Shown here: in pieces, positions 1,143 through 50,446 of the stretch
How positions within the stretch are numbered: position 1 is the first letter of the stretch
How the letters are laid out: each line of letters opens with the position of its first letter
Source: Solwaraspora sp. WMMA2056
Lineage (GTDB): Bacteria > Actinomycetota > Actinomycetes > Mycobacteriales > Micromonosporaceae
Direction: 5' to 3'
NCBI RefSeq assembly: GCF_030345095.1
Contig: NZ_CP128360.1
Location: 3,844,001 to 3,908,000 of the forward strand
Length of the DNA: 64,000 nt
Made by a program: the position numbers and the translations under genes
The notes under the pieces: generated by a model
Seen by the model: the letters and a program-made list of their open reading frames with translations, nothing else
Told to the model about the DNA's origin: nothing
The model's database searches: none

Positions 1143-2039
1143 ATGGCACGTGCACCGAGGACCCGCAAGGCACCCGCCAACCCCGCCATGTCGCCCACCG
1201 TGCAGGCCATGGAGCTCGGCATCCGGCTACGCGAGCGCCGCGAGGAGCTGGGCATGACCGCCGTCGGCGTCGGCCGCAGCAGCGGCATCACCCAGGCGTA
1301 CGTCTCCGGAGTGGAGATCGGCAAGGTCAAACTCCCGGCTGACCGGCTCGCCCAGCTCGTCAAGATCTACGAGATCGACGACCAGGAGGCGACCGAGCTG
1401 GAAGCGCTGCGGGTCGGCGCGATGGCCCGCGCCTGGTGGCACACGTACAAGCAGCTCTTCCCGGCCGAGTTCCTGCGCTTCCTCGGCTACGAGGCCGGTG
1501 CCGACCACGTCCGCACCTACCAGAACGAGATCGTCCACGGCCTGTTGCAGACCGAGGCGTACGCCCGCGCGATCCTGCGCGGTGGCAACACCTACGTCCG
1601 GCTCACCGAGACCGAGCAGCGTGTCGAGGTGCGGATGGCCCGGCAACGCCGGCTCACTGAGGACCCACCGCTGCGCGTCACCGCGATCTTCGGCGAGAGC
1701 ACCATCCGCCAGCAGGTCGGCGGCCCCGAAGTGATGCGTGCCCAGCTCGACCACCTGGCCGACCTGATGACCCGGCACCCGGAGCAGATCCGGGTGCACA
1801 TCGTCCCGTTCTCGGCCGGTGCCTACCCGGCGCTCGGCGGGCCGTTCCAGATCCTGTCGTTCCCGTCGGCCCGGGTGCCGGACCTGGTCTGGCAGGAGGT
1901 GCTGACCTCCAGCGACATCATCGACCAGTCGAGCCGGGTCGCCGACTACACAATCACCTTCGGTGAGACGCTGGAACGGGCGCTAAACTCCGAGGAGTCC
2001 CTCGCCCTGATCCGCCAGGTCGCCCAGGAGATGGAATGA
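1143..2039 (+). CDS. XRE-family regulator with C-terminal DUF5753 domain
   Basis: A 298-residue protein. Residues about 22-75 form a helix-turn-helix of the XRE/Cro type (LRERREELGMT, then the ITQAYVSGVE recognition region). The remainder, from about residue 95, matches the DUF5753 domain that commonly follows it in actinomycetes, with its W-H-TYKQLFPAEF opening and the conserved ENEIVHGLLQT-like region. An open frame continues upstream, but the ATG at 1143 has GGGAGG at 1131-1136, so I start it there. Its stop overlaps the next start by 4 nt (ATGA). Members of this family usually pair with a DUF397 protein and are linked to development or antibiotic regulation in Streptomyces and relatives. 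The targets here are unknown. Confidence 0.9.
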   Translation: MARAPRTRKAPANPAMSPTVQAMELGIRLRERREELGMTAVGVGRSSGITQAYVSGVEIGKVKLPADRLAQLVKIYEIDDQEATELEALRVGAMARAWWHTYKQLFPAEFLRFLGYEAGADHVRTYQNEIVHGLLQTEAYARAILRGGNTYVRLTETEQRVEVRMARQRRLTEDPPLRVTAIFGESTIRQQVGGPEVMRAQLDHLADLMTRHPEQIRVHIVPFSAGAYPALGGPFQILSFPSARVPDLVWQEVLTSSDIIDQSSRVADYTITFGETLERALNSEESLALIRQVAQEME

Positions 2040-2236
2040 CCGAGCACGCCCCGGCAGACGGCTGGTTCAAGTCCTCCCGCAGCTCCGACAACGCCGCCTG
2101 CGTCGAGGTCCGCCTCGGTGCCGACACCATCGGCGTACGCGACTCCAAGGACGTCAGCGGCCCGGCGCTCGCCTTCGACCCGGCCGCCTGGACCGGCTTC
2201 CTCACCACCCTCAAGACCGCCGCGCCGGGCTCGTAG
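2036..2236 (+). CDS. DUF397 protein, partner of the XRE regulator
   Basis: A 66-residue protein with the DUF397 pattern: W-F-K-S-S-R-S near residues 9-15, N-x-A-C-V-E-V at 20-26, and V-R-D-S-K near 39-43, followed by a WxGFL-like element near the C terminus. It starts inside the stop codon of the upstream XRE-DUF5753 gene (4-nt overlap), which implies translational coupling. Such pairs are abundant in actinomycetes and have been compared with toxin-antitoxin-like or regulator/co-factor modules. A molecular role for this pair is inference only. Confidence 0.9.
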   Translation: MTEHAPADGWFKSSRSSDNAACVEVRLGADTIGVRDSKDVSGPALAFDPAAWTGFLTTLKTAAPGS

Positions 2237-2245
2237 CGTCTGCGG

Positions 2246-2905
2246 CTATCGCCAGAACATCAACCGCCGCCTGCGCCACGGAGTCGCGGTGTAGGCGGCC
2301 AGCCCGGCACCCAACAGCGCGGCGCTGAGCACGAGGCTGGGCACATCGTCGTACGGCCGGGCGCTGAACTCCCACCACCGGTACTGATCGTTGCCGCCGA
2401 ACCCCCAGTACCACAGGACGACGGCGACGACCGAGGGCAGCGTCCAGGCCAGCCGCCAGCCGAGGACCGCTCCGGCGAGCAGCGCCAGGCCGAACCAGGC
2501 GATCCACCCCCGCGCCATGACCGCAACGACGGCCGGCGGCGTGGTCAGTGCGGAGATGCCCAGGAAAATCACTGCGGATCCGGTGCCCAACCCGGCGAGG
2601 TAGAACCGCTGCATGGACCGTAGCCGTCGGGTGGCTGCCAGCTCCAGGCCCGCGAGGGGACTAGCCAGCCCGATGACCGGCAGGACAGCGGCACCCATGA
2701 CGAGCAGCCGCCACATTGGGACGAACGCCGTGTCGTGTTCGGCCGCCTGAGGTAGCGGTGCCTCGACCATGCCGAACCAGGTCACGAGCGCACCCAGCAG
2801 GACCATGCCGGCGAGGACGGTACGTGCCGGCCGAACCGAAAGAAACAGCCTGACCGGTACGGCGACTGTGGGTACCTCAACGTCCCGGCTGGCAGTAGTG
2901 CCCAT
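2246..2905 (-). CDS. Integral membrane protein of an ABC transporter locus
   Basis: A 219-residue protein with about six hydrophobic segments, spread roughly over residues 25-45, 65-90, 105-125, 130-150, 155-170 and 190-208. It has no recognisable catalytic motif. Its start lies 29 nt inside the end of the upstream 426-residue membrane protein, so the two are translated from one message. Together with the interrupted ATPase gene upstream, it probably forms an ABC-2-type exporter or a related membrane complex. The substrate is unknown. It ends 10 bp from the convergent DUF397 gene. Confidence 0.7.
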   Translation of the reverse strand: MGTTASRDVEVPTVAVPVRLFLSVRPARTVLAGMVLLGALVTWFGMVEAPLPQAAEHDTAFVPMWRLLVMGAAVLPVIGLASPLAGLELAATRRLRSMQRFYLAGLGTGSAVIFLGISALTTPPAVVAVMARGWIAWFGLALLAGAVLGWRLAWTLPSVVAVVLWYWGFGGNDQYRWWEFSARPYDDVPSLVLSAALLGAGLAAYTATPWRRRRLMFWR

Positions 2906-4157
2906 GAATGTACTTCACCTCTTCGTCCGCCCATCGAAACTGATCGGACAGGGAGTCGCCGTTGGCGATCTCGCGTCCATCCGACCAGGCTTCCTGCCTG
3001 TCCGCAGGTGCGTTGGTCTGGTAGTCCGGGCTGCTCTCCCCGGCCAGATACGCCTCCAGCCAGGCTCCAAGCGCCTCGAATTGCCTCCGGTCGGGCGGGC
3101 TCAGATCGTTCCAGTCGCAGGAATCAAACTTGAAAGTCGAGGAAACTATCGCCGTACCGATGTCGCCTGAGAAGGACCACGAACTTCCCTCGAAAATGTA
3201 GAAAATCGGCGGTGCTCCATTGTAGCTGAGGTGCCACTGCCCGTCGGGCAAGCGAATCCAGGCTTTCTGTATACCGGCCTGATTGATGCGTGGCGGGCGG
3301 ACGAAGCTTTCCGGCAGCAGATCGATCCGCGCGCTTACCTCCCGCAGCTGGGGAAGGTACTTCTCGTGCTCCGGCCAGATGCACAAGGTGGTCGTGCCTT
3401 CGACGCACGCCACGTCTTCTCCTGGTTGCTTCCGGTCGGTCACCGCATCTGTGGCGACCAGGGCCACGACGAGCGGTAACACCGCAGGGACCAGCAGCAG
3501 GGTCCTCCGCCGTCGCAGCGCATGGGAAGCCGGTAGGCAGAGCAGCATCAGCAGCAGGACGATGACCGACGCCAGCCGTAGGGTGAGTGCTCCCGGGTCG
3601 ACCGTCATCTCCGGCCGGCCGGAGATGACGACGAATCCGAACCGGTCGAGAAACGCGGTCAGAAACAGGAATCCCAGTGCCGCCGTCAGCGCGGCGAACA
3701 TCGAGCCGAGCAACTTCCCGCACGCCCAGCCCAGTGCGGTCGAGGCCAGAATCACGAAGATTCCCAGGAGGGCGTAGCCCAACCAAAGATGCACGCCGGG
3801 TGGAAACGTCCGAGCCGTGATCATGAAGGCGACGGCCTGACCGACCAGGTACGGAACCAACAGGACGACGACAGTAGCGCCCAGCCGGTTCGCCTCCAGC
3901 CGGGCCGGATGAAAGCGCGAGGCCGTCAGCTGCTCCACGATCCGGTGTCGCTTCGGCGCGCTCGCTGCCCACGCCGCCGCACCGGCACCGACCACACCGA
4001 GCAGGTACGCGGGAGCCAGCGCTGCCGCGCCGGTCTCCGGCCAGACGCCGATCCAGTGGCGGTTGCGGAGGAACAGCACCGCCAGTTCGATGGCGACGAA
4101 CACTGGCAACGCCCACCGGACCGGAGAGTTCCGGACGTGCAACCACAGCCCGCTCAC
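2877..4157 (-). CDS. ABC-transporter-associated membrane protein with large C-terminal extracytoplasmic domain
   Basis: A 426-residue protein. About six membrane segments lie in the first 240 residues, the last being the hydrophobic stretch near LLLVPAVLPLVVALVA. They are followed by a soluble domain of about 180 residues that opens with a CVEGTTTLCIWPEHEKYLP-like segment. A Cys pair with a WPEH element after the last membrane helix is a pattern I associate with actinomycete ABC-2 accessory membrane proteins (DUF7224-like); this assignment is from memory. The GTG start at 4157 overlaps the stop of the ATPase gene by 4 nt. The order ATPase, this protein, then a smaller membrane protein suggests one exporter. 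The ATPase is disrupted, so the system may be inactive. Confidence 0.75.
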   Translation of the reverse strand: MSGLWLHVRNSPVRWALPVFVAIELAVLFLRNRHWIGVWPETGAAALAPAYLLGVVGAGAAAWAASAPKRHRIVEQLTASRFHPARLEANRLGATVVVLLVPYLVGQAVAFMITARTFPPGVHLWLGYALLGIFVILASTALGWACGKLLGSMFAALTAALGFLFLTAFLDRFGFVVISGRPEMTVDPGALTLRLASVIVLLLMLLCLPASHALRRRRTLLLVPAVLPLVVALVATDAVTDRKQPGEDVACVEGTTTLCIWPEHEKYLPQLREVSARIDLLPESFVRPPRINQAGIQKAWIRLPDGQWHLSYNGAPPIFYIFEGSSWSFSGDIGTAIVSSTFKFDSCDWNDLSPPDRRQFEALGAWLEAYLAGESSPDYQTNAPADRQEAWSDGREIANGDSLSDQFRWADEEVKYIHGHYCQPGR

Positions 4158-4868: not shown

Positions 4869-4890
4869 TAGGGCAGCCGTACTTCGTGAC
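4869..4890 (+). repeat. Left terminal inverted repeat of the IS element
   Basis: This 22-bp segment is the exact reverse complement of 6332-6353. The outermost bases are TAGGGCAG. The match continues past a one-base mismatch for TGA at 4892-4894. Confidence 0.95.
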
Positions 4891-4894
4891 TTGA

Positions 4895-6256
4895 TCATGT
4901 GAGTCTGGATCGGTAGTGGTACCAGCGGGCGCGGGCTTGATGGCGGCGGCGCCACCAGGACCAGCGGAGATGGTGTTCGAGGCTGTGCCAGGCTCTGGTC
5001 GCGAGGTTGTACAGCCGTTTGATCTCGACCACGGTCAGCCGGGCGAGTCCGAGGTCGGCCGGTGGTGGTTCGCTGGGGTGGGTGGGTCGGGGTGGTGGCG
5101 TGGTCCCGGCCGCGGCGTCGGCGGCGGTGACCGCGCAGACGGCGAGCGCGGCCATGACCAGCACTATGTGCCGCATGATCGGGGTGTGGAGGCGGTTCTG
5201 GAACTGGTCGAACCCGAAGTGGTCCTTGCCGAAGCCGTGGTCCTCCTCGATCGTCCACCGCCGGCCGGTCACCCTCACCAACGCGGTCAGGGTCGCCGGA
5301 AGGCGCTCCGGTATCCAGCAGTAGAAGTAGGCCAGGTCGTCGGGGTCAGCCAGGCTCCGGCGTACGAGCAGGTAGTGGCGGGGGCTGGCGGTGGCGATCC
5401 ACGCCCACGCGTACCAGCGGTCGCCTTTGGAACCCGCCCCGCAGGACATGGTCTGCCAGGCGGTGTCGGTGGTCAGGGTGGTGGCAGCGGTGTCGGCGCG
5501 GATCTTCGTCTTCCAGCCGGGCAGGGTGATCCGGAACGAGCACGGCACGCCGAGGCTGTAGCCGATTCCCCGGGTCTCGCAGGTGTCGCGTAGTCGCCGG
5601 TCCCGGCCGTAGACGGCGTCGGCGGTGCACCACCGCACGGGTACGCCGGCGTCGAGTGTCTCGGTGAGCAGGTCGGTGGCGAGTCGGGGTTTGGTCGCGA
5701 ACTCGGTGTCGGCGGGGACGCCGGTGGCGGCGCGGCGGGCGTCGTCGTCGAGGTGGGCGGCGGGGATCCACAGGCGGGAGCCGACCAGGGCGTGGCCGGC
5801 GCGGGTGGCGTAGGTGGCGTTGACCAGGTTGACGGCGTTGGTGACCTTTCCCGCGCAGCCCACGTACTGGCGGGTCACGCCGCACGTGCCGGTGCCGGTC
5901 TTCTCCACGCCGCTCTCGTCGAAGATCAGCGTGTTGTCGCCGTCCGGGTCGGCCAGGCGTGCCACGGCGAAGTCACGGACCACGCCCATCGCCTTGTCGG
6001 TGTCCCAGACCGCGCGTTCGAGGAGTCGTTGCATCCGGTCGGGGGTGGTGTCCCCGGCGTGTTCGGCGAGGGTCCAGCAGTTCTTGCGTGGCAGGTCGGC
6101 GATCAGGCCACGGACGTACTTGCCGGCCTGCCGTAGTGGTTCGACCCGGGCGAAACACGCGCCGAGGTCTCCCATCAGCGTGGCGAGGTTCTCCTCGACC
6201 CGACCGGCCTCTACCATGGCCGCTGCGGCCACCTCGTGATCCTTCGTTGTCCACAC
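4895..6256 (-). CDS. IS701-family DDE transposase
   Basis: A 453-residue protein starting at a GTG (6256), of normal length for IS701 transposases. DDE-type landmarks are visible: the first Asp in LIFDESGVEKTG near residue 114, the second in WCTADAVYGRDRRLR near residue 213, and the Glu in RRWTIEEDHGFGKDHFG near residue 335. The C terminus is basic and Trp/Arg-rich (WSWWRRRHQ). The frame is intact, so the element is potentially active. Its stop at 4895 lies just inside the left inverted repeat. A shorter form from the ATG at about residue 14 cannot be excluded. Confidence 0.92.
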   Translation of the reverse strand: MWTTKDHEVAAAAMVEAGRVEENLATLMGDLGACFARVEPLRQAGKYVRGLIADLPRKNCWTLAEHAGDTTPDRMQRLLERAVWDTDKAMGVVRDFAVARLADPDGDNTLIFDESGVEKTGTGTCGVTRQYVGCAGKVTNAVNLVNATYATRAGHALVGSRLWIPAAHLDDDARRAATGVPADTEFATKPRLATDLLTETLDAGVPVRWCTADAVYGRDRRLRDTCETRGIGYSLGVPCSFRITLPGWKTKIRADTAATTLTTDTAWQTMSCGAGSKGDRWYAWAWIATASPRHYLLVRRSLADPDDLAYFYCWIPERLPATLTALVRVTGRRWTIEEDHGFGKDHFGFDQFQNRLHTPIMRHIVLVMAALAVCAVTAADAAAGTTPPPRPTHPSEPPPADLGLARLTVVEIKRLYNLATRAWHSLEHHLRWSWWRRRHQARARWYHYRSRLT

Positions 6257-48282: not shown

Positions 48283-48762
48283 CTACCGTGCGGCGCGTCG
48301 CCGACGCAGCAGCCGTACCCGACGGGCGACCTGAACCACGACGCCGTCCGGCGTGCGGCGCAGCGCCGGCCACCGCCGCAGTCGGGGCCCGGACCGGCCG
48401 TCGTAGCGCCAGCGGACCTCGGCGACGGCGAGTTCCGCCCGGGCGGTCGCCGGAAGCTGTCCGGTCTCGGCCAGCTCGCGGGCCAGGTCCCAGCCGTCGC
48501 GCCAGCCGCCGACCGGCGTCCTGGCCCGCGCCCAGCTGACGAATACGGCGGGCCACCGGTCGGCGAGCGCACGGACCAGGCCCGGCCAGTGCCGGGCCAG
48601 CTCCCCGGCCCGCTTGTGCAGCAATGCCCGGCGGGCCGCCGCGAGCCGGTGCCGGTCGAAGCCGGCCGGGTCGGCCGCGCCCGTCACGAGTGCGGCGACC
48701 AGTGCCCGCTGGGCAGCGGCCAGCTCGCCGGCGCCGACGGTCGGGGGCAGCGAGTGGCTCAC
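48283..48762 (-). CDS. Small partner protein of the DUF692 enzyme
   Basis: A 159-residue protein, helical and very Arg/Ala-rich, with WPGLVRALADRWPAVFVSWARARTP in the middle and a basic C terminus (RRVRLLRRRRAAR). It overlaps the DUF692 gene by 4 nt. Proteins in this position (in the SCO6045-like group of Streptomyces, from memory) play the place of the substrate-recognition partner seen with other MNIO enzymes, such as MbnC with MbnB. Sequence similarity to MbnC is not obvious to me; the functional parallel is inference from context. Confidence 0.65.
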   Translation of the reverse strand: MSHSLPPTVGAGELAAAQRALVAALVTGAADPAGFDRHRLAAARRALLHKRAGELARHWPGLVRALADRWPAVFVSWARARTPVGGWRDGWDLARELAETGQLPATARAELAVAEVRWRYDGRSGPRLRRWPALRRTPDGVVVQVARRVRLLRRRRAAR

Positions 48763-49580
48763 GTGACCGGCTCCAGCCCGGCCGCCACCGCGATAGCGTC
48801 CAGCTCGGCATGCAGCTGGGCCGCTGGTGGATAGTGGCCGTCGCGTTCCAGCAGCACCGCCGGGGGGCGGCGGCGGGCGGACAGGTCGGCGAGCAGCCCC
48901 AGCACCTCGGCGGGGACCGCGTCGGTGTGCGTGTCGTGGTAGATCCCGTCGTGGTCGACGGCACCGCCGGCCACGTGCAGGTAGGCGATCCGCTCCAGCG
49001 GCATCCGCTCCAGTACGGCGACCGGATCCTGCCCCCGGTTGCGGGCGTTGGCGTACACGTTGGCGACGTCGAGCAGCAGCAGCGCGTCACAGCGCTCGAG
49101 GATCTCGGTGACGAAGTCCGGCTCGTCGAACTCGTCGTCGGGCCAGTCGAAGAGCGCGGCGATCGGTTCGAGGGCCAGCGGCACCGGCAGGTCCGCGCGG
49201 GCGCGGGCCACGTTCGCCACCACCGCGTCGAGGGCGGCCCGGGTCCGTGGCAACGGCAGCAGATGACCGGCCTCGACGCCGCCGGCCCGGACGAACGCGA
49301 TGTGCTCGCTGACCAGCGGGGCGTCCAGCAGCTGCGCGACCCGGGCCAGCCGGGTGACCCGGGCCGCCTCGACCGGCTCGGCGCCACCGAGGGAGAGCCG
49401 TACACCGTGCGCGACGACCGCCACGCCACGTGCGCGCAGCGCGGCCAGCTGCGGGTCGAGCGGCCGGTCCGGGTCGACCGACTCGGCGATCACCTCGGTG
49501 AACCGCAGCCCGGGCAGCGCCGCCACGACGCCAGCGATCTCGGTATGCCAGCCGATGCCGACGCCGTACGGACCGGTCAT
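48759..49580 (-). CDS. DUF692 multinuclear non-haem iron oxidase (MNIO)
   Basis: A 273-residue TIM-barrel enzyme of the DUF692 family, which includes MbnB, TglH and related iron enzymes that modify Cys or other residues of ribosomal peptides using oxygen. Metal-site and family segments are present: VVAHGVRLSLGG, LVSEHIAF, ALEPIAALFDW, LLLDVANVYANARN, IAYLHVAGG and HDTHTDAVPAEV. The ATG at 49580 overlaps the stop of the membrane-protein gene by 4 nt, and the stop overlaps the start of the partner gene by 4 nt, so all three are coupled. The likely substrate is the Cys-containing tail encoded just upstream. Confidence 0.88.
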   Translation of the reverse strand: MTGPYGVGIGWHTEIAGVVAALPGLRFTEVIAESVDPDRPLDPQLAALRARGVAVVAHGVRLSLGGAEPVEAARVTRLARVAQLLDAPLVSEHIAFVRAGGVEAGHLLPLPRTRAALDAVVANVARARADLPVPLALEPIAALFDWPDDEFDEPDFVTEILERCDALLLLDVANVYANARNRGQDPVAVLERMPLERIAYLHVAGGAVDHDGIYHDTHTDAVPAEVLGLLADLSARRRPPAVLLERDGHYPPAAQLHAELDAIAVAAGLEPVT

Positions 49581-50446
49581 CCGCCGCACCCGCCGCAGCC
49601 GCCACCGTCGCCCCCACCACCGTCGCCACTGCCGCCGCCGTCGCCCCCACCGGAGTTGGTGGCGTTGCGCTCGATCTCGGCGGTCTGGGCGAAGTCCGGA
49701 TCCATCGCCCACAGCGCTACCGCCCCGAACAGTGCGACCCCCATCGCGGCATCGGCCGCGCCGTAGGTGGCGTACGAAGGCCGGTTGCTGGGCGCGAGGT
49801 GCCGGTGCCGGCGGGCCAACTCCGCCAGGGCCCGCCGGCCGGCGGCGGTGACCGTGGGGACCTTGACGGTCAGGAAGAGTCCGATCGGGACGGTGAGGGC
49901 CAACAGCAGCATCAGGTAGCCGATCGGGCGGCCGGTCGACATTCCGGCGATCAGCCGCAGCACGCCGACGCCCGTCAGCGCCAGCATTGCGGCACCCAAC
50001 CAACGGGCGGTGGTGCGGCGGGCCGGTGGGACCAGCAGATCCCGATCGGTCAGCCGGTCGTGCAGCCGGTCCAGGCTCTGCCGTACCCAGATGTTGTCCG
50101 GCAGGTCGCGGACCCGGCGCTGCTCGCGGGCGCAGCGGTGGACGGTCGCGGTGAGATCGTCGGCGCCGGCCGGGAGCGGCCCGGGGGCGCTCAGCCGACC
50201 GCCGGCAGCGACGTCGATCGCTCCGGCGGTCCGCAGGGCACCGAGCGCGGCCTGGACGGCCCGCGCGACGCCGCCGGCGAGGTAGGCGACCTCGGTGCCG
50301 GTGAGCTCGTCCGGCCGGGTCTGCTCCCGGCCGGCCAGCGCGAGCAGCCGGTAGGCCACGTTGACCACCAGCAGAATCGCTGCCGCGAATCCGAACAGGG
50401 CCAGGAAGGTGGGGCCGGGGATGCCCCAGGTGTCGCCGGACGTCAT
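49577..50446 (-). CDS. TIGR04222-type membrane protein with Gly/Cys-rich C-terminal tail
   Basis: A 289-residue protein. One membrane helix near the N terminus (TFLALFGFAAAILLVVNVAYRLL) is followed by a soluble domain of about 110 residues (GTEVAYLAGGVARAVQAALGALRTAGAI), then two adjacent hydrophobic helices around residues 155-195 and another near residue 240. The last 24 residues consist only of Gly, Asp, Ser and Cys and end GDGGGCGGCGG; the two Cys in this tail are the only Cys outside one in the soluble domain. The ATG at 50446 has GGAGG four bases upstream, preferable to the earlier in-frame codons. Directly followed by, and coupled to, the MNIO gene. Confidence 0.82.
   Translation of the reverse strand: MTSGDTWGIPGPTFLALFGFAAAILLVVNVAYRLLALAGREQTRPDELTGTEVAYLAGGVARAVQAALGALRTAGAIDVAAGGRLSAPGPLPAGADDLTATVHRCAREQRRVRDLPDNIWVRQSLDRLHDRLTDRDLLVPPARRTTARWLGAAMLALTGVGVLRLIAGMSTGRPIGYLMLLLALTVPIGLFLTVKVPTVTAAGRRALAELARRHRHLAPSNRPSYATYGAADAAMGVALFGAVALWAMDPDFAQTAEIERNATNSGGGDGGGSGDGGGGDGGGCGGCGG

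Follow-up and report, generated by a model that had tools for sequence, protein, structure and literature searches.

MNIO (DUF692) proteins are iron enzymes that chemically alter Cys residues, and the alterations made by characterised members of the group include the installation of copper-binding groups on peptides that are secreted. Here we describe an MNIO gene in a 64,000-nucleotide stretch of the Solwaraspora sp. WMMA2056 genome (contig NZ_CP128360.1, positions 3,844,001 to 3,908,000; the whole stretch is called the window below), where it is coupled to the genes for a TIGR04222 (near_uncomplex) membrane protein with a Cys-containing tail and for a small basic protein. In its composition the trio is an ordinary member of a published cluster type, and the idea that its membrane protein is the substrate is already in print (PMC12452194). 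What we add is new support for both the substrate and the partner of the enzyme, plus a different topology. The reading that we prefer, and to which we give an even chance of being correct, is that the MNIO, assisted by its partner, oxidises Cys-Gly steps in a membrane-anchored tail on the cytoplasmic side, most likely for copper or redox handling.

Passages of Antoine et al. (2025; PMC12452194) describe the gathering of more than 3,500 TIGR04222 proteins, mostly from Actinomycetota, many of which adjoin MNIOs; Ser/Gly-rich C-terminal regions with Cys are noted, and subsets of these proteins are proposed as MNIO substrates. According to the same passages, which report no bench test of the family, a third of the genomes with TIGR04222 have no MNIO and the C-proximal Cys is missing in more than a quarter of the proteins. 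The families are those of the window: the examples depicted there are a TIGR04222 protein of 300 residues from Micromonospora and a PME-type 2 protein of 158 residues from Micromonospora matsumotoense, and the M. matsumotoense locus of our own set (L367) holds the same trio. A partner is present in at least 10 percent of the published clusters and many are described as having none, whereas in the loci studied here almost every MNIO has one, in some cases within a single ORF. A literature search by titles and the beginnings of abstracts, which left subscription papers mostly uncovered, returned nothing else on the trio; a TIGR04222 peptide is mentioned in a Pseudonocardia cluster (PMC5183585).

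The bufferin and captophorin systems (BufA-BufB-BufC, FonABC, HvfABC) likewise set an MNIO and a partner to work on Cys, with Cys-Gly dyads in the EGKCG group, and BufB is the nearest model for the window enzyme. Their precursors are described as having Sec signal peptides and their partners as DUF2063-RRE proteins (PME-type 1; PMC12452194), whereas our candidate substrate is an integral membrane protein, the partner has no DUF2063 match and the enzyme misses the BufB and HvfB cut-offs. Specifically, the TIGR04222 protein has 289 residues and three strong hydrophobic segments, no signal-peptide program having been run, and so does not resemble a bufferin or captophorin precursor. For the fontiphorin system, in which FonBC forms a 5-thiooxazole, a preference for a small residue after Cys is reported, the Cys-Gly dyad being typical (PMC13097082). 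Methanobactin (MbnABC) and pearlin (TglAHI) biosynthesis also pair an MNIO with a partner protein.

The three genes of the window lie on the minus strand. The TIGR04222 gene (49577..50446, ATG start) encodes the presumed substrate, the MNIO gene (48759..49580) a protein of 273 aa, and the presumed partner gene (48283..48762, GTG start) a basic, PME-type 2-like protein of 159 aa. The stop of the first gene and the start of the second share the sequence ATGA (49577..49580), and the stop of the second and the start of the third share GTGA (48759..48762). Membership of the TIGR04222 domain family (7.5e-46, 156.6 bits, cut-off 43) and of the MNIO superfamily (PF05114, MbnB_TglH_ChrH; 1.6e-75, 254.2 bits, cut-off 25) is clear. 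In profile searches of the 7.0-Mb Solwaraspora genome each of the two families gave a single match, and both matches are in the trio. The last 24 residues of the membrane protein, GGGDGGGSGDGGGGDGGGCGGCGG (49580..49651, minus strand), consist of Gly, Asp, Ser and Cys only, include Cys284 and Cys287 and end in GDGGGCGGCGG; they form the presumed modified segment. The first-pass annotation of this DNA had described three overlapping minus-strand genes for a membrane protein with such a tail, a DUF692 protein and a small basic protein, and all of this was borne out.

Glycine is encoded by mixed codons in the final 28 codons of the window gene (10 GGC, 4 GGT, 3 GGG, 1 GGA). For comparison we took the best 80 of the named GTDB loci, of which there were at least 587; 53 of the 80 are from Micromonosporaceae and 27 from other groups. 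The order TIGR04222-MNIO-partner is kept in all 71 that have room upstream, and a Gly/Ser/Cys tail is present in 69 of these. Since the codons are mixed and the gene order recurs, the trio and its tail are not a product of chance. The two tail exceptions are L388, with one Cys and no Gly tail, and L403 (Verrucosispora sioxanthis), whose tail is out of frame: there the tail-coding stretch at 4880-5010 is frame-shifted relative to its relatives, owing to either a sequencing error or a broken tail.

The AlphaFold2 model of the TIGR04222 protein (pLDDT 90.4) has helices at 11-36, 141-171 and 176-194 that match the three strong hydrophobic segments, and its tail is disordered (pLDDT below 50 at 268-279, 281-284 and 286-289). 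A fold search with this model gave 23 matches, all weak and unrelated. Among 173 linked Cys-tailed proteins, Cys makes up 10 percent of the last 40 residues, and GCGG is the terminal sequence in 132. Of their 696 tail Cys, 602 have Gly as the next residue and 689 have either Gly or Ser there. Gly at position +1 of Cys exceeds its share in shuffled tails in Micromonosporaceae (476/555, 0.86 vs 0.51), in genus g9, presumably Streptomyces (24/32, 0.75 vs 0.43), and in the remaining taxa (102/108, 0.94 vs 0.58), related sequences entering these counts many times; at position -1 the respective values are 0.55 vs 0.51, 0.25 vs 0.44 and 0.75 vs 0.58. MNIO-remote Cys-tailed copies (15 Micromonosporaceae proteins) have the same preference at +1 (0.91 vs 0.53).

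We investigated the relationship between the two families in two draws of genomes, with counts that are not corrected for relatedness. The first comprised 200 genomes from the same family as the window: 132 had both TIGR04222 and PF05114, 5 had only TIGR04222, 2 had only PF05114 and 61 had neither. The corresponding numbers for 295 genomes of the class were 62, 20, 13 and 200; among the 20, G639 carries a partial MNIO at the edge of a contig. Tail Cys were then counted within the last 40 residues of 272 out of 290 unique TIGR04222 open reading frames (ORFs), obtained from 363 fetched loci that do not cover every match of the draws. In Micromonosporaceae, at least two Cys are present in 138 of 142 MNIO-adjacent proteins (one Cys in 3, none in 1), in 15 of 53 proteins whose genome has the MNIO elsewhere (one in 3, none in 35) and in 0 of 6 from MNIO-less genomes, one of which has a single Cys. 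In other taxa except g9 the respective counts are 28/30, 3/4 and 2/16, the two proteins of the last count (L337, L338) having no Gly tail at their ends and two more of the 16 having one Cys. In g9 they are 7/19, 0/1 and 0/1. With L337 and L338 set aside, all 191 proteins having at least two tail Cys, from 163 genomes, come from MNIO-bearing genomes. Furthermore, in 21 of 36 Micromonosporaceae genomes with both linked and remote copies, Cys is found in the linked copy and in none of the remote ones. In a metagenome-assembled genome (G467, locus L269) TetR and TIGR04222 keep their order but neither MNIO nor partner is found at that place, and the tail consists of a run of Gly with one Cys. At 1301-3671 of this locus an ORF that looks amidohydrolase-like by eye occupies the place of MNIO and partner.

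Turning to the enzyme, positions H58, H93, E138, D171, N174, H202, D216, H218, E245 and D247 are, among others, invariant in 19 aligned MNIOs, and we take these His, Asp, Glu and Asn residues to represent the metal-ligand pattern and the catalytic-base Asp of the superfamily. The solved relatives found by sequence are 3bww and 8hci. Placed via the 3bww alignment, D247 of the ERD motif probably corresponds to the catalytic base Asp249 of FonB, and the residue that follows it is Gly; in FonB, the residue after Asp249 is reported to tune specificity (PMC13097082). The best NCBIfam model is BufB (175.3 bits, cut-off 310); HvfB scores 156.6 bits (cut-off 360), these bufferin/captophorin equivalogs being NF050167 and NF003818, and the methanobactin enzyme MbnB is far under its cut-off (32.5 vs 325 bits). 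A second, more distant MNIO type occurs in a few actinomycete genomes (L061-L064, L317-L319), with identities of 34 (L061), 36 (L063) and 33 (L317) percent; L061, L317 and L319 have no partner.

NCBIfam and Pfam profile scans of the third protein gave no significant family match. Using a partner profile rebuilt after removal of MNIO domains, we found a homologue directly after the MNIO in 170 of 179 genomes, in 139 as a gene of its own and in 31 joined to the MNIO without interruption in a single ORF. Nine genomes remain: in four (G437, G458, G521, G571) there is a strong hit, assigned by the script to a position within the MNIO, two (G397, G565) stop at the contig edge and three (G566, G735, G785) resemble other MNIO types. 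A homologue also follows the MNIO in all 80 named loci. Because it follows the MNIO near-universally and is sometimes fused to it, we consider it very probable that the third protein acts as partner of the MNIO, and the earlier proposal to this effect thus gained support. As in PME-type 2 proteins, it comes directly after the MNIO (4-nt overlap) and is without the DUF2063 signature: PF09836 had no match in the window partner and matched weakly in 2 of 46 homologues, at best with 0.016. The AlphaFold2 model of the partner, built from 46 sequences, is of high confidence (pLDDT 94.6) and consists of helices followed by three strands. In a Foldseek search of the PDB the first of 47 matches was chain C of MbnABC (7dz9; E 0.83, TM-score 0.33), and chains of TglHI (chain A) stood at ranks 10 and 11 (E 3.6), none of these being significant; judging from chain lengths, the matched chains would be MbnC and TglI. 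The C-terminal domain of MbnC is described as having helices that precede strands (PMC12710340). NGO1945 (3dee) was not among the 47 matches. In sequence searches against solved structures, the single partner protein gave one irrelevant weak match and the profile none at E up to 10.

From what was computed, namely the families, the linkage of the genes, the linkage of the partner and its fusions to the MNIO, the co-occurrence of tail Cys with an MNIO, the enrichment of Cys-Gly and the charge bias, we infer a modification whose chemistry, metal and membrane side may be pictured as follows. The three genes would form a self-contained modification cassette. The TIGR04222 protein would have three spanning helices with the N-terminus outside, while its helical domain and its C-terminal tail of Gly, Asp, Ser and Cys would face the cytoplasm. 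There the MNIO, a soluble enzyme in complex with its partner, would oxidise tail Cys at Cys-Gly steps, and by analogy with the nearest characterised relatives the product would most likely be a thiooxazole-type or related heterocycle. The modified tail might then serve as a metal ligand, for copper most likely, or as a redox group anchored at the inner face of the membrane.

We favour the cytoplasmic side on charge and hydropathy, that is, by inference rather than measurement. In 156 of 161 proteins (12 of the 173 having been left out for too few residues) Lys and Arg are richer on the side of the domain, the pre-tail loop and, with three spans, the tail, and the fourth hydrophobic stretch (232-248) is weak. 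In another reading, which we consider rather unlikely, the MNIO would modify the tail before insertion, and the tail would end up on the outer side of the membrane, displayed there to bind metal or for redox purposes. A periplasmic tail is predicted in passages of Antoine et al. (PMC12452194), the stretch does exist in the window protein, and a charge within it, found in 42 of 173 proteins, is no proof against a span, because the second hydrophobic segment also carries one in 138 of 167. However, the median best-17 hydropathy of the fourth stretch is 1.43, against 2.54, 2.27 and 2.64 for the other three segments, at least two charges are present in 18 of 173 proteins, and its helix in the AlphaFold2 model is broken (225-240, 242-248, 250-255). 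Together with the charge bias, this leaves the first-pass idea of a membrane-displayed tail without support and, if the tail is cytoplasmic as we prefer, places it within reach of the MNIO and its partner. The N-termini of the latter two proteins are not strongly hydrophobic.

Beside the published periplasmic prediction, several other observations weigh against the proposed cytoplasmic tail modification. The window MNIO is under the cut-off of every characterised NCBIfam equivalog, and no metal gene was found among the window neighbours and flanking proteins scanned. Over a wider count, covering up to 120 residues after the domain, at least two Cys are present in 173 of 191 adjacent and 18 of 58 remote proteins, and also in 8 of 23 proteins from MNIO-less genomes; in four of these eight (L325, L339, L340, L342) the Cys lie in a Gly-rich part that precedes the end. 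In a FastTree phylogeny of 161 domains, for which 85 of the MNIO-adjacent rows had been drawn at random before the length filter, the Cys label changes 10 times and adjacency 14 times, and independent-pair tests of joint Cys/MNIO change, with 3 and 6 supported pairs, were not significant. Since independent changes are few and the pair tests not significant, Fisher values overstate the evidence. The expectation of the first-pass annotation that tail Cys would be lost where DUF692 is absent holds to the extent that Cys tails are not equally frequent there, all 191 belonging to MNIO genomes, while the tree and the wider count do not back it. It seems very improbable to us that the tail is nothing more than low-complexity sequence in which Cys occur incidentally and that its linkage to the MNIO reflects operon history: the scarcity of independent changes would suit this, as would the TIGR04222 glycine-rich ends without Cys in the last 40 residues in MNIO-less genomes (L325, L327, L328, L332, L333, L340, L342), but a Cys share of one in ten residues, Gly or Ser after nearly every tail Cys, the recurrent GCGG end and the mixed Gly codons of the window gene speak against it. 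More trouble comes from g9, where 12 of 19 MNIO-adjacent TIGR04222 proteins have no tail Cys and end like AAFAHRE despite MNIO and fused partner; these are a true exception to the Cys-tail pattern. At L292, L293, L294, L299, L302, L306 and others, a single MNIO-partner ORF lies near a Cys-free TIGR04222 protein. L292, read whole, has the MNIO-partner ORF, then a 279-aa protein, which we take to be of the DUF4142 type, the TIGR04222 protein without Cys and a larger ORF that resembles a hydrolase. In the eight g9 loci scanned, two of which have no TIGR04222 hit, no further ORF with a Gly/Ser-Cys tail was found within 2.5 kb; in L304 the contig ends shortly past the MNIO. The MNIO might act on another part of TIGR04222 or on an unlinked peptide, the tail being an unmodified metal- or redox-active thiol segment. 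The g9 proteins argue for this, as do genome G023 (L307), which has MNIO and partner and no TIGR04222 match, and the 13 of 295 class genomes with MNIO and no TIGR04222. We regard it as quite unlikely; the confinement of all 191 Cys-tailed proteins to MNIO-bearing genomes and the Cys-Gly enrichment speak against it. The tail as MNIO substrate, as first proposed for this locus, is in sum favoured by linkage, the 191 of 191, the Cys-Gly enrichment and the fusions and disfavoured by the tree control and the 8 of 23; it is supported, not proven.

With respect to the origin of the membrane protein, DUF2207_C (PF20990) matched weakly in 27 of 42 TIGR04222 homologues (best 5.4e-4). Four homologues checked singly gave three matches, all under the cut-off, and the profile scan gave none for the window protein itself. 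Outside the class, sub-threshold TIGR04222 matches at L028-L031 sit in open frames of 548-1204 aa. Taken together, these frames and the weak DUF2207_C matches hint that TIGR04222 and DUF2207 membrane proteins may share common descent. A second, MNIO-remote TIGR04222 paralogue with a Cys-free tail like VDPERDRPRPDRKPARR is present in genus g2 (Micromonospora) at L146, L147, L149-L153, L160, L162, L163 and L166.

The genes that flank the trio are a matter of local synteny. The short-chain dehydrogenase (SDR) and Mug glycosylase genes, suggested in the first-pass annotation as further members of the transcript, were considered as cassette members and rejected: of the 80 named loci, 44 have the SDR gene and 40 the Mug gene, every one of them among the 53 from Micromonosporaceae and none among the 27 others, and the two genes are distributed like the TetR (48) and HAD (46) genes on the other side, which are equally confined to Micromonosporaceae. 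Among the genes compared, the trio alone is common in the 27 other loci, apart from one ABC-transporter hit. Ten flanking proteins from five other loci offered no functional clue, nine being of common unrelated types (acyltransferase, two-component kinase, two regulators, phosphofructokinase, ThiI, biotin carboxylase, GNAT, adenosine deaminase) and one having no hit. No protease was found among the window neighbours scanned or these ten proteins.

It is tempting to speculate that the MNIO modifies, in place, the cytoplasmic C-terminal tail of a DUF2207-related membrane protein instead of a secreted peptide, and that the resulting metal-binding tail, of thiooxazole type or new, stays anchored in the membrane without ever being released and is widespread in actinomycetes; we hold this wider proposal tentatively, at somewhat less than an even chance. 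The partner and topology evidence points to the three genes, the tail peptide and the membrane side as worth examining. If MNIOs do act on resident membrane proteins at the inner membrane face as well, many actinomycete genomes, such as the 62 of 295 that have both families, would carry an unstudied anchored metal or redox site.

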